Assembly: GCA_903927025.1 (NCBI GenBank)
Contig: CAIYLG010000045.1
Span: 62,001-126,000 of the forward strand
Source of the DNA: an uncultured Armatimonadota bacterium
GTDB lineage: Bacteria; Armatimonadota; Fimbriimonadia; Fimbriimonadales; Fimbriimonadaceae
Direction: 5' to 3'
Length of the DNA stretch: 64,000 nt
Numbering within the stretch: position 1 is the stretch's first letter; every line of letters begins with the position of its first letter. Positions 44,881-49,960 of this stretch are shown here, one piece after another. The notes below the pieces were generated by a model, which was given only the letters and a program-made list of their open reading frames with translations, had not been told where the DNA came from and did not search any database. The position numbers were made by a program, and so were the translations under genes.

Positions 44881-47256
44881 ATGATCGTTTCACAGATCGC
44901 ACTCTCACTGGCATTCCTGACAGGACAAGCCGCGGGTCAGGCTGATGTTAAGTTCCCGGGGATTCCTCAGGAACAAACTAGCCTGATCAAGCTGACGGAC
45001 TGGCACGGCTGGACCTATGCCGCGGGAGGGAAGACGGTCTGGCCAAGGCCGTACGACGCTGGGCTGGATTGGTCAGACGTGCAAAAACACGCTGCATCCA
45101 AAGGTGGTACCCAGGCGATTTGGCACCTCAAAGTCGTCGTCTTCACGAAGACAGAAGCAGATGGTCGTGATTCGCGAGGAATCCTCCGCCAGAAGCGGGC
45201 AACGATTGAATCCTCCCAGCTTCTTCAGATTCGGGAGTCGGTCGCACGGCTTGAAGCACTCGTTGCCGCTCAAACAGATGGAGCGATCAAGGTCGTAACA
45301 GACCTACAGATCGAGAATGAGTGGATGAGAGAATCTGGCACCTCTCCGTTCGGCGTGGACTTTGCCGCTCGCTACTTTGAGGCACGGATCAATGGCGGAA
45401 CCTACGAATCGGAAGATAAGATCTTCCGTGGGCCCTTTCATTCAGCGATATACGTGCTTCCAGGTTCCCTGTTCGCTGCACTTCCGGACGCAGTAGTCAA
45501 CGACACACCGGTTTCAGGAATTTCCTCGCGGCCGATCGCAGCCGATGGCTCCAGCCTAGATTTTGATTCCGCCTTGGATGCGCTGTGGATCCGACAAGTG
45601 GGACTGCGCGCTCGTGAAAAGGGATACCAGGGAATCGCAATTTCTACGGATGGCCCAGTAGATTCAAATTGGACCGTCGCCGCCGATCTTGCCGAACCAT
45701 CAGGGGCATCCTACGTAGCGAACCTCAACAAAACGCTCGCACTTCACGCGTCGATTACCCAGCCGCATATAGTGAAACTTCCGTCCACGCCAACGACCTC
45801 CGTTGACGCGGCGGCTGACAATGAGAAAGGGCAGGTCCTAAAGGTTGTCGAGGCGTCCGCGGTTCGAGACGGGGGCATCGCGCTTCCTATCAAGGCAGAT
45901 GGGACTCCACTGGCCAAAGCGGATGCCACCCCAACACTAACATTTTCAGCAAAGTCCTCGAACAAGGATCCCATGTCGGTTAGATTGGATTCTTCGACCG
46001 GCAAATCCGCATGGATATCCCTGGGCCCCGATCCTTTCCTTGTCAATCCTGCCGCTGGACTCACCGTATTGAGTGTTCCATTTACGCCGAACGGGAAATG
46101 GCAGAAGATATCAGTCGATCTCCATTCCCTGGGACTGGCGGATGTTTCCCAAATGTCAATTGAGCCGAGTCCAAACGCCAAACTGAACGGCAAGTTGGAG
46201 CCAGCGCTGATCGAATACGAATTCGATCAGTTCAGCTTCAACAGCGATCCGGCAGGACAGGTGTTGGTCCCACCAACAGCTGATGTGGCTTCGGATGATC
46301 CGGAAGCGAGAGCCCTGTTTGCGGCCCAAGCAAAATCCCCGAGTCCTCAACTCGCTGCGCTTCTTAAAGATAAGAGCGTCCTGGTGCGACTCAATGCAAC
46401 GACAGCTTATGCTGGGTTCAAGGATCCGTCCGTTGAGACCGATCTCATCTCTAATACCGTGGATCTAGATCCGGCCGTAGCTTCTGCAGCCCTCACCGCG
46501 CTAATGGCAGAGGGAAGTGAAGTAGCCAAGTCTGTCGTGCTTCGCTCGGTGAGCGTATCACTTTCTGAATTCACAAAGATGACGGCGGCAAGGCTCTTGG
46601 CGGACACCAAGGATGCTAAGCAGGCAGATAACGTTGCAAGGTTGCTTGCGAGTAGGAGTTGGCAGGCCCACGTCTCTGCTATTGAATCTTTGGCGGAGAT
46701 CCATACTCCCGAGTCTCAAATATGGAGACTGGCCTTCATTGGAATGAGTGACCCTGCAGTTAAACTCGCGGTTACCCGATACGCTGACCCTTCGCTCGAT
46801 AAAGTCGCAGCCCCGCTTCTATGGTCTGCGGTCAACGAGCCGAGTGACCGGGTGAGAGCGGAGAGCTACACCAAGCTGATTCAGTCTTCGGTGGAATCGA
46901 ATCGATCAGAGGGTTACAAAGGCGTCCGAGATGACAGCGAGTTTGTTCGGCGGCTTGTCGTGGAGTACCTATCATCTCATCCGGATGAAGCGCACCGGGG
47001 CGCACTCAGAATCGCGATTGCAGATCGGTCGGCAGGAGTGCGTGCGGCGGCGCTGCTTGGCTTCTCGAATTTGGATAAAGGAGCGGTTCAAGATGAGATC
47101 GCGAACGTCCTTGACGACCCGAGTCCTGCCGTTCAGCTAGCGCTAATCGGTTTTGCAAAGAAGCACTCCTTCAAGCTGCCTCAGAAATCGATCGATGCAA
47201 TGGCTGCGAGTCCTGACGTCCGTGTGAGCACTGCCGTCAAAGCACTTGGAAGCTAA
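44881..47256 (+). CDS. Exported protein with C-terminal HEAT-like repeats
   Basis: 791 residues. Signal peptide (MIVSQIALSLAFLTGQAAG), an N-terminal region of unknown fold (about 25-290, TSLIKLTDWHGWTYAAGGKTVWPRP), a central domain resembling a carbohydrate-binding jelly roll (about 300-460, MSVRLDSSTGKSAWISLGPDP and WQKISVDLHSLGL) and a C-terminal array of HEAT-like helices (about 475-791, LLKDKSVLVRLNATTAYAGF, LASRSWQAHVSAIESLAEI, DRSAGVRAAALLGFSNL). Such modular proteins are common on the surface of Planctomycetes- and Armatimonadota-like cells. Function unknown. It begins 19 bases after mtnP and may be transcribed with it. Confidence 0.75.
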   Translation: MIVSQIALSLAFLTGQAAGQADVKFPGIPQEQTSLIKLTDWHGWTYAAGGKTVWPRPYDAGLDWSDVQKHAASKGGTQAIWHLKVVVFTKTEADGRDSRGILRQKRATIESSQLLQIRESVARLEALVAAQTDGAIKVVTDLQIENEWMRESGTSPFGVDFAARYFEARINGGTYESEDKIFRGPFHSAIYVLPGSLFAALPDAVVNDTPVSGISSRPIAADGSSLDFDSALDALWIRQVGLRAREKGYQGIAISTDGPVDSNWTVAADLAEPSGASYVANLNKTLALHASITQPHIVKLPSTPTTSVDAAADNEKGQVLKVVEASAVRDGGIALPIKADGTPLAKADATPTLTFSAKSSNKDPMSVRLDSSTGKSAWISLGPDPFLVNPAAGLTVLSVPFTPNGKWQKISVDLHSLGLADVSQMSIEPSPNAKLNGKLEPALIEYEFDQFSFNSDPAGQVLVPPTADVASDDPEARALFAAQAKSPSPQLAALLKDKSVLVRLNATTAYAGFKDPSVETDLISNTVDLDPAVASAALTALMAEGSEVAKSVVLRSVSVSLSEFTKMTAARLLADTKDAKQADNVARLLASRSWQAHVSAIESLAEIHTPESQIWRLAFIGMSDPAVKLAVTRYADPSLDKVAAPLLWSAVNEPSDRVRAESYTKLIQSSVESNRSEGYKGVRDDSEFVRRLVVEYLSSHPDEAHRGALRIAIADRSAGVRAAALLGFSNLDKGAVQDEIANVLDDPSPAVQLALIGFAKKHSFKLPQKSIDAMAASPDVRVSTAVKALGS

Positions 47257-47354: not shown

Positions 47355-48656
47355 ATGAACACAACCTCGAAAAGCATCCTTTCGGCAACGGGAGTCGTCG
47401 CTTCCGTAGCCGCAGTGATCATGGGCTATCGCGCTCGGCAACAGGCCGATATCGGCGCAGTCCAGGTCGCGGACAATGGCGTGACGATTGATCGCATGGT
47501 CGCATCCCGATCGAATGACATCAACGTCCCCGCCGGCGACTACTTTTACGAACTCAGCCAGAAGCTTAAGGATCAGTATGTTGAACCGGTTACGGATGAC
47601 AACAAGCTTGTCACCGGCGCCATTCGCGGCATGATCCTTAGTCTCCAAGATCCTCAGTCGCAGTATTTGGACCGGACGCAGTTCGCAAGCTACCTGAATG
47701 CGAGAGACGGCAAATTCGAAGGCATCGGAGCAGATTTCGCCTTGGTCACCGGCCCCAATGCAGCGCAGCTTGAAGCAGCCCATGAGCAGGAAGCACCCGC
47801 CACAACCGCAGAAGATGCTGTGGTGAGCGTTCAGGACATTCCAAGACTGCAGGTAGTCAGTGTGGTGCCGGGCGGCCCCGCAGATAAGGCTGGCGTTAGC
47901 GTCGGCGATTTGGTGTACTCAGTAGATGGACACTGGGTTGCCCAGAGTGAGCCTATTCGCAAATTTAGAAAGGCCCTCAGAGATTTCAATTCCAAGAAGA
48001 TTTCCGCGGCGGCGATCAATCAGCTGCGAACGGAAATTCGCGCCAAGGCAGACAAGGCGATCATGCCAGTGAAGGCGAAGGATATGCTCTTTCTAGGGAA
48101 ATCCGGCGCCGTGACTGTCGTGTGGGAGCGAAAGGGTGTCCAGCGATCCACAAAGATTACTAAGCTGCACAGCACCATGCCGGGCTTTCAAGTCTCTGGC
48201 AACGAGATTCGTCTGCCGTTCGTTCCAGCTTCTGCAAACTCTCTTAAGCACGCCATTGCCGGCAAATCTGAGGTCACGATTGACCTGAGAAACAACACGA
48301 TGGGAGACCTGGGGTCCATGAAGCAGTGCCTCGAGGTTATAGCTCCATCCGGGGAATACGGAAACTTTACGACATTCCGCCACGATAAGCCGACCCCGCT
48401 TGTGGTCAGAAAAGGAAACTCGAATCCACCTCGAATCACCTTGGTTACCGATAAGAGCACACGAGGAGCCGCAGAGATATTCGCATTGGCGCTTTCTTCG
48501 AGAGGTGTCGCTCACCTAACGGGCTCAGAGACTGGAGGTGATCGAGACGTACGATCGATCTTCAGACTGACGGACGGTTCTGGCTACACACTCGTGACCT
48601 CGGTTTATAAGCCGACTCTCGGCAAAGCGAAGCGCACGATTGGAGGAACACGATGA
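47355..48656 (+). CDS. S41-type carboxyl-terminal processing peptidase homolog, catalytically dead
   Basis: 433 residues. An N-terminal signal/anchor (about 7-25), a PDZ domain (about 105-270, VSVVPGGPADKAGVSVGDLVYSVDG) split by an extra helical insert (SKKISAAAINQLRTEIRAKA), and the S41 core (about 280-433). Aligned with Tsp/CtpA through AAEIFALAL, the nucleophile Ser position is Gly371 (STRGAAEIF) and the general base Lys, 25 residues on, is Asp396 (TGGDRD). Both catalytic residues are lost, while its neighbour retains them at identical spacing. It probably acts as a regulator or partner. It overlaps the active copy by four bases. A weak TAGAAT (47331-47336) could be its -10. Confidence 0.88.
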   Translation: MNTTSKSILSATGVVASVAAVIMGYRARQQADIGAVQVADNGVTIDRMVASRSNDINVPAGDYFYELSQKLKDQYVEPVTDDNKLVTGAIRGMILSLQDPQSQYLDRTQFASYLNARDGKFEGIGADFALVTGPNAAQLEAAHEQEAPATTAEDAVVSVQDIPRLQVVSVVPGGPADKAGVSVGDLVYSVDGHWVAQSEPIRKFRKALRDFNSKKISAAAINQLRTEIRAKADKAIMPVKAKDMLFLGKSGAVTVVWERKGVQRSTKITKLHSTMPGFQVSGNEIRLPFVPASANSLKHAIAGKSEVTIDLRNNTMGDLGSMKQCLEVIAPSGEYGNFTTFRHDKPTPLVVRKGNSNPPRITLVTDKSTRGAAEIFALALSSRGVAHLTGSETGGDRDVRSIFRLTDGSGYTLVTSVYKPTLGKAKRTIGGTR

Positions 48657-49906
48657 AGCCGGTAGTCAAGGTCATTTCTTTTGGCGCCGTGGTTGGCGGC
48701 TGCTTTTTGTTCGGATTCTGCTGGCCAGATATCCAGCGCCTCAAAGCTCCGTCGACTCGAGCGATTGGGAACCTGTTTGGAGTGAGGTCGACCGGCGGAG
48801 AAAGCCCCAGCATCGAATTCCAGCACGCCTATGCGGAGATCCTCACCGACTACGTGAAGCCTGTTGATCGGACGAACCTCAAATACGCTGGCATGGAAGG
48901 CCTTATGGCCTCTCTGGGAGATCCTCACACCATATTCATGCCGCCGAGGGCGGCGGCCGCTTTCAACGATGAGACGCGTGCCAACTTTAGTGGAATTGGT
49001 GCCCGACTGGGTGGCGATCCTATGGGAGCCAAGATTGTTGTCGTCTTCGACGACAGTCCCGCATCTGCCGCAGGAGTCAAAGCCGGAAACGTCGTCACCG
49101 CAGTGGAAGGCAAATCGGTTGCCGGCAAGGAAACGGACGATATCGTGTCCCTGATTAAAGGCCAAGAGGGAACTGTCGTTCACCTCACGCTGATTCAGAA
49201 GGGCAAAGAGAAGCCGGTAAATCTCGCTATTCGCCGAGCCAAGATCATCGCCCCAACGGTCGACTCAAAGTATCTCGCTGATCAGCAGATTGGATACATG
49301 TCCATTGCTTCTTTCTCGGAGCCCACCGCCGCTCAGTTTGACAAGGAACTTGGAAAGCTTGAAGCGCATCCGCTGAAAGGATTGGTCATCGATCTGCGAG
49401 AAAATCCAGGCGGATTACTTGAAACGGCATGCGACATGCTCAGTCGATTTGTTGAGGATAAAGTCGTCGTCAAGATGAAGTTTAAGGATGGCAAGGAAGA
49501 TGTGGCGCGTTCCTATCCTGGCGCGCTTCACCAGTTCAACTATCCGATCGCCGTTCTCATGAACGAAGACTCGGCCAGTGCGGCTGAAATCTACGCGGGC
49601 TGTCTTAGGGACTATGGCAAGGCCAAACTTGTTGGCACCCACAGCTACGGAAAAGCATCGGTACAAAACGTGTTCCCGCTGGTTGACAACAGCAGCGCGA
49701 AGATCACCATCGCCAAATACTTCCTGCCAGTCACCCCCTTCTTTGGTAGAAAGGTGGACGCTTACGGCAGCTATATCAGTGGCGGGTTGGAGCCAGACCT
49801 CAAAGTAGATCTGTCGAATAATCCAGAGCTGGTGTTTGGAGACGTCAAGACGGACAACCAGTTGGACAAGGCGATCACACTGCTGAATCCAAACGCAAAA
49901 TTCTAA
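48653..49906 (+). CDS. S41-family C-terminal processing peptidase
   Basis: 417 residues, paralogous to the preceding gene. An N-terminal anchor (about 5-24, VISFGAVVGGCFLFGFCW), a PDZ domain (about 110-195, DDSPASAAGVKAGNVVTAVEGKSV) and an S41 catalytic core with the Ser/Lys dyad intact: Ser309 in NEDSASAAEIY and Lys334 in THSYGKAS, 25 residues apart. LKGLVIDLRENPGGLL is the usual substrate-site strand. It should degrade or trim periplasmic proteins from the C-terminus. Expression is coupled to the dead homolog by the ATGA overlap, and a terminator follows. Confidence 0.94.
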   Translation: MKPVVKVISFGAVVGGCFLFGFCWPDIQRLKAPSTRAIGNLFGVRSTGGESPSIEFQHAYAEILTDYVKPVDRTNLKYAGMEGLMASLGDPHTIFMPPRAAAAFNDETRANFSGIGARLGGDPMGAKIVVVFDDSPASAAGVKAGNVVTAVEGKSVAGKETDDIVSLIKGQEGTVVHLTLIQKGKEKPVNLAIRRAKIIAPTVDSKYLADQQIGYMSIASFSEPTAAQFDKELGKLEAHPLKGLVIDLRENPGGLLETACDMLSRFVEDKVVVKMKFKDGKEDVARSYPGALHQFNYPIAVLMNEDSASAAEIYAGCLRDYGKAKLVGTHSYGKASVQNVFPLVDNSSAKITIAKYFLPVTPFFGRKVDAYGSYISGGLEPDLKVDLSNNPELVFGDVKTDNQLDKAITLLNPNAKF

Positions 49907-49917
49907 GCCAGACTGGA

Positions 49918-49960
49918 GCCCGCTTCACCCGTAATTGGTGAAGTGGGCCCTATTTGTTTG
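49918..49960 (+). terminator. Intrinsic terminator of the S41 pair
   Basis: GCCCGCTTCACC (49918-49929) / GGTGAAGTGGGC (49937-49948) with one wobble, seven-base loop, then CCTATTTGTTTG. Confidence 0.8.

Follow-up and report, generated by a model that had tools for sequence, protein, structure and literature searches.

C-terminal processing proteases (CTPs) of family S41 regulate peptidoglycan hydrolases as well as signalling in the cell envelope; the solved ones considered here are homo-oligomers, some of them with unrelated adaptors. CtpB of Bacillus subtilis (4c2c-4c2h) is a homodimer of active subunits that use the triad Ser309-Lys334-Gln338, and its N-terminal region mediates dimerization (PMC3808539). 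Both halves are thus active in CtpB. In the CtpA-LbcA complex of P. aeruginosa (8sxe-8sxh), by contrast, each dimer combines an active with an inactive half (PMC11021448). According to PMC11021448, binding of substrate activates both monomers of Prc in the E. coli Prc-NlpI complex (5wql). These cases raise the questions of what an inactive half does and whether a CTP dimer needs two active sites. Outside the proteases, activation of a live enzyme by its dead paralogue is proven for trypanosome AdoMetDC with its prozyme, and for DHS (PMC5201418, PMC3663545). The present analysis concerns two adjoining S41 genes, A and B, at positions 47355-49906 of a 64,000-nucleotide stretch of Armatimonadota DNA (the window), in which a dead CTP paralogue is encoded directly ahead of a predicted active one.

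Organization of the A-B locus

Gene A (47355..48656, forward strand, as are all features below) is an open reading frame of 433 residues that corresponds to a membrane-anchored S41/CTP pseudo-protease by Pfam, AlphaFold2 (AF2) modelling and VIA-align. Gene B (48653..49906) encodes a predicted active protease of CtpA/CtpB type (417 residues), assigned from TIGR00225, its match to CtpB (1e-57), its AF2 model and VIA-align. The Pfam domains S41, PDZ and CtpB_N-like are common to both proteins, the PDZ domain of A being a PDZ_6; the S41 match of A scores 44 bits against a cut-off of 24. B exceeds the cut-off of NCBIfam family TIGR00225 (prc; 268 vs 218.6 bits), whereas A does not. Membrane anchors are present at the N termini of both. 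The dead copy had been described as keeping its PDZ domain and core, and both the Pfam matches and the CTP fold of its AF2 model bear this out.

The stop codon of A and the start codon of B overlap in the sequence ATGA (48653..48656), with both reading frames on the same strand and at the positions given for them in the original prediction; 76 of 125 loci share this 4-base overlap. Translational coupling is supported by this arrangement, while the equal production first proposed from it is not, since an overlap says nothing of equal amounts. A terminator-like hairpin (49918..49948, RNA fold z -5.3) closes the unit.

Loss of the catalytic residues in A

Alignment places Gly371 (48465..48467) and Asp396 (48540..48542) of A opposite the nucleophile Ser309 (49577..49579) and the base Lys334 (49652..49654) of B, with a spacing of 25 residues in both proteins, in agreement with the original prediction. 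It adds a third replacement, as Gln338 of B (49664..49666), the third residue of the triad, corresponds to Arg400 in A (48552..48554). The residue numbers 309, 334 and 338 of B are identical to those of CtpB by coincidence. B combines the Ser-Lys-Gln triad with the family profile and the fold of S41A, and it is the sole aligned S41 protein of the window's genome with all three residues; A, with Gly371, Asp396 and Arg400, falls outside the active members.

Loci read directly across the phylum Armatimonadota yield 121 distinct A-then-B pairs, with B readable in 119. Ser and Lys never occur together in A (0/121), whereas Ser, Lys and Gln are present in every readable B (119/119). The Ser position of A is occupied by Gly (71), Asn (22), Arg (11), Asp (9), Ser (7) or Lys (1), and the Lys position by Asp (65), Glu (16) or a mixed remainder. 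In four A proteins (L031, L032, L201, L204), Lys is found at the base position and the Ser position holds Asp or Gly; in seven further ones Ser is kept and the base is replaced by Asp or Glu. A Ser/Lys dyad elsewhere in A was looked for in the orthologues and is absent: no Ser, Lys, His or Cys column is conserved among them, which rules out a relocated catalytic dyad, and none of the 121 pairs contains two active copies. The combination of a pseudo-protease with an active protease is thus strongly supported.

The acidic residue that roughly two in three A proteins (81 of 121) have at the Lys position might suggest an enzyme with changed chemistry, in which Asp396 or another residue acts in place of Ser and Lys. 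We consider this very improbable, as the Ser position varies among six residues with no nucleophile conserved, and as conserved polar residues of A such as Asp310, Arg312 and Asp185 are likewise conserved in B, so that no alternative dyad is visible.

Replacements of single catalytic residues also occur in other S41 proteins. Two adjoining ones elsewhere in the window's genome (L004 and L005, G000:C8:56211-58032) keep Ser, with Ala in place of Lys in each, and a relative on a Chthonomonas contig (L163) has Met there. Four Chloroflexota CTPs (L111, L123, L128, L133) keep Ser and carry Thr at the Lys position.

Distribution and evolution of the pair

The order A then B is unbroken in all 121 distinct pairs, so that the same pair, sought in related genomes, is found across much of Armatimonadota with fixed linkage and co-occurrence. 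At E<=1e-5, P0001 has matches in 260 of the phylum's 291 genomes, many of the weaker matches being ordinary S41 proteins. B is present in all 88 high-quality genomes of the order, and the order's five genomes without an A match are all below 90% complete. A deep-A profile gives strong matches in 65 genera (families f1-5, f10-14, f16, f19, f26 and f31-35); its weakest matches, in family f22, are single active CTPs (L187 and L188). Genomes of family f1 that the A2 profile misses are lost to its strict cut-off and are recovered by P0001. Three genomes of families f21 and f22 carry a lone active CTP with neither the PDZ insert nor an adjoining partner. No natural A-B fusion was found in the loci read.

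Outside the phylum, the A-type profile gives 0-1 matches per phylum at E<=1e-75 in samples of about 150 genomes each, drawn from the phyla of a Chloroflexota, a Cyanobacteriota, an Acidobacteriota and a Bacillota genome, at a cut-off that would likewise pass over the less well matching A orthologues in the family of the window. The two out-of-phylum matches are ordinary active CTPs and were rejected as A-type proteins.

A tree of 90 S41 proteins places A in one clade (SH-aLRT 100) and B in another (90), and the two clades subdivide into similar subgroups. The dN/dS of A is 0.03-0.14 in the closest pairs whose synonymous change is not saturated, which indicates purifying selection. As A is monophyletic and under purifying selection, the catalytic loss is ancestral to its clade, and A has been conserved as a dead protein since the clade's ancestor. 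The possibility that A is a degenerating, functionless duplicate draws on its somewhat faster evolution than B in most pairs. It is the least credible of the explanations considered, given a reading frame that is intact in 121 distinct pairs spanning many families, the low dN/dS, a single ancient origin and one conserved A-specific insert; purifying selection rules out a pseudogene. At one locus (L046, in G078), a stop or frameshift at the contig end divides the A orthologue between two reading frames, through either a sequencing error or decay.

Acidobacteriota possess an independent CtpB-like clade whose dyads are dead (L122, L124, L126, L127, L134, L141, L142, L146, L149, L155, L158, L164), in which Ser is replaced by Gly, Ala, Asn or Asp and Lys by Asp or Arg. 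These proteins resemble A in that both residues are replaced, often by Gly and Asp (e.g. L127, L142, L158), but they lack the PDZ insert and do not lie beside an active CTP. Since they form a separate clade, CTP death has arisen more than once, and the Gly/Asp replacement there is independent.

Features retained and lost in A

In domain order, the proteins resemble CtpB, with N-terminal dimerization helices followed by PDZ, cap and core, and with a GIGA loop in both A and B. The N-terminal membrane-anchor helix of A (residues 3-33, 47361..47453), seen in the AF2 model and in conservation, contains a nearly invariant Gly24 and Arg28. It is followed by a two-helix region (residues 60-96, 47532..47642), identified from the AF2 model, conservation and the dimerization role of its CtpB counterpart (PMC3808539), whose mean conservation is 0.48 in A vs 0.45 in B. 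The carboxylate-binding loop GIGA of the PDZ domain (residues 123-126, 47721..47732; G113-A116 in CtpB) reaches a conservation of 0.86 in A, with Gly123 in 118/118 and Gly125 in 116/118 sequences. By comparison, the stretch around the Ser position scores 0.56 in A vs 0.76 in B, and that around the Lys position 0.38 vs 0.71.

The extra helical insert that had been noticed in the PDZ domain of A (residues 198-233, 47946..48053) is real. The AF2 model resolves it into two helices (residues 198-212 and 218-233, pLDDT ~96), and the corresponding PDZ span measures 44-69 residues in A vs 21-32 in B, the insert being present in every A except one truncated copy. Of 121 B proteins, 116 have Arg or Lys where CtpB has its sensor Arg168, and A has lost this residue. 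Beyond the last core strand, about 12 residues remain in A proteins of the window's family, compared with about 45 for the other A proteins and 63 for B, so that A of the window's family lacks most of the C-terminal dimerization region. The locus thus differs from CtpB, where both subunits are active, in having one dead gene with an extra PDZ insert and no sensor Arg. Judged from the sequences, the pattern of conservation in A is that of a subunit competent for assembly and peptide binding and freed from catalysis.

Predicted structures and the resting state

Both AF2 models are CTP folds (mean pLDDT 89.1 for A and 91.4 for B). By VIA-align, the best match of the A model is the D1 protease 1fc6 (Z 23.2, rmsd 4.1 over 285 residues); among CtpB structures it scores slightly higher against the resting forms (4c2e and 4c2h, both Z 21.1) than against active ones (Z 19-20, with 4c2c at 19.3). 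The B model aligns to active-state CTPs with Z 33-36, its nearest matches being 4c2c/f/g and chain A of the 8sx* entries; it matches 4c2c with Z 33.1 and rmsd 4.7 vs Z 23.2 and rmsd 8.4 for the resting 4c2e, and 9jr1_B with rmsd 2.9 over 347 residues. In the CtpA-LbcA entries 8sx*, the A model matches chain B rather than chain A, and the B model the reverse; from these model matches, chain A would be the active subunit. A closeness of A to the resting state and of B to the active state is therefore suggestive, with differences that are small for A and that AlphaFold may echo from its training set.

A resting-like A would suit a pseudo-subunit with an inhibitory or chaperone-like role, holding B inactive until released by a signal or substrate and taking no part in substrate delivery. 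Dead paralogues can be regulators, and A is the first gene of the operon, its end overlapping B. Nonetheless, the PDZ carboxylate loop and the PDZ core are among the most conserved parts of A, which a pure inhibitor would not need, and CTPs already possess an off state through their own PDZ domain (PMC3808539); we regard this explanation as unlikely. A heteromer, an inhibitor or an adaptor, the three roles first proposed for A, form a sensible list of candidates, among which the pattern of conservation speaks for a heteromeric partner that binds peptides rather than for a pure inhibitor.

Genomic neighborhood

Genomic neighborhood analysis associates the pair with cell-wall genes in deep lineages. 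In two deep families (L221/L189 and L222), an M23 peptidase with a PcsB coiled coil is followed by A, B and a polysaccharide deacetylase, and a deacetylase lies 3' of B in three further deep loci (L225, L226, L227). Lone active CTPs of other phyla occupy similar loci, one after an M23 protein (L231) and one before a deacetylase-like gene (L232), and the single CTP of L224 likewise lies in an M23/deacetylase-type locus. This M23/PcsB-deacetylase context, shared by pairs and single CTPs, suggests that the ancestral task was the remodelling of the cell wall. The neighbours are different in the window's family, where RpiB and a secreted HEAT-repeat protein have taken their place. In the window itself, a HEAT-repeat protein whose N terminus is signal-like is encoded 5' of the pair (44881-47256), with relatives upstream in 65 loci, and RpiB is the nearest upstream gene in many other loci.

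A proposed heteromeric processing protease

Taken together, A and B are probably two subunits of one membrane-anchored extracytoplasmic CTP, in which B cleaves and A is a partner free of catalysis. Both being membrane-anchored, the two would pair through the N-terminal helical region that makes CTP homodimers. Cleavage would fall to B alone, with A making up the resting-like, non-catalytic half. The intact PDZ domain of A, whose extra helices would serve for docking, would bind the C termini of substrates or another envelope protein, and A would gate or stabilise B. Likely targets would be M23/PcsB-EnvC-type peptidoglycan hydrolases, along with other proteins of the envelope. Pairing, delivery or gating, and the substrates are the parts of the heteromer proposal that we infer. 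Against it stand the missing C-terminal dimerization region of A in the window's family, the absence of natural fusions from the loci read, and B itself, which models well alone and might be active alone.

Alternatively, A might be a separate PDZ protein that binds peptides or serves as a scaffold beside B, for example handing envelope proteins to B or to the deacetylase, with no stable complex between them. A retained PDZ domain with an added helical insert fits such a role, as does the partial loss of the C-terminal dimerization region, and the coevolution signal does not clearly exceed that of shuffled pairings: mean-field DCA on 119 pairs (effective 108) gives an apparent TM-TM enrichment (11 for the real pairing vs 2-10 for shuffled ones), not counted as evidence because shuffled pairings give it too. 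A free-standing scaffold is nevertheless improbable, to about the same degree as an inhibitor, given an N-terminal dimerization region as conserved as that of B and a linkage and order unbroken in 121 pairs.

The heteromeric reading admits a stricter form, an obligate heterodimer whose inactive half is a dedicated gene product serving as substrate receptor, which would make the pair a heteromeric S41 protease ancient in the phylum. The chances of this form fall a little short of even.

Comparison with the described systems indicates which elements of the heteromeric protease would be shared. CtpA-LbcA likewise involves a CTP that acts on peptidoglycan cross-link hydrolases and a half-active dimer, but there a TPR lipoprotein imposes the asymmetry on identical subunits, whereas in Armatimonadota it would be divided between two genes; in our reading, the asymmetry of the P. 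aeruginosa CtpA dimer may have been fixed genetically in this phylum. Prc-NlpI also joins a PDZ protease to a partner and has envelope substrates, yet the partner is again a TPR lipoprotein rather than a dead paralogue, while A is itself a CTP paralogue and not a TPR protein. The prozymes share with A the status of catalytically dead paralogue of the partnered enzyme, although fold and chemistry are unrelated and activation by A would be an extrapolation. Both parts, a CTP and a dead paralogue as partner, are thus known; no earlier report of an S41 pseudo-protease paired with a protease was found in the open-access papers searched, and, as far as found, their fixed combination across a phylum appears to be new.

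In the proposed heteromer, the pair would represent a natural separation of function, maintained across part of the phylum, between assembly and peptide binding on one side and catalysis on the other. For Armatimonadota, which have few cultured members, it would provide a defined envelope system.
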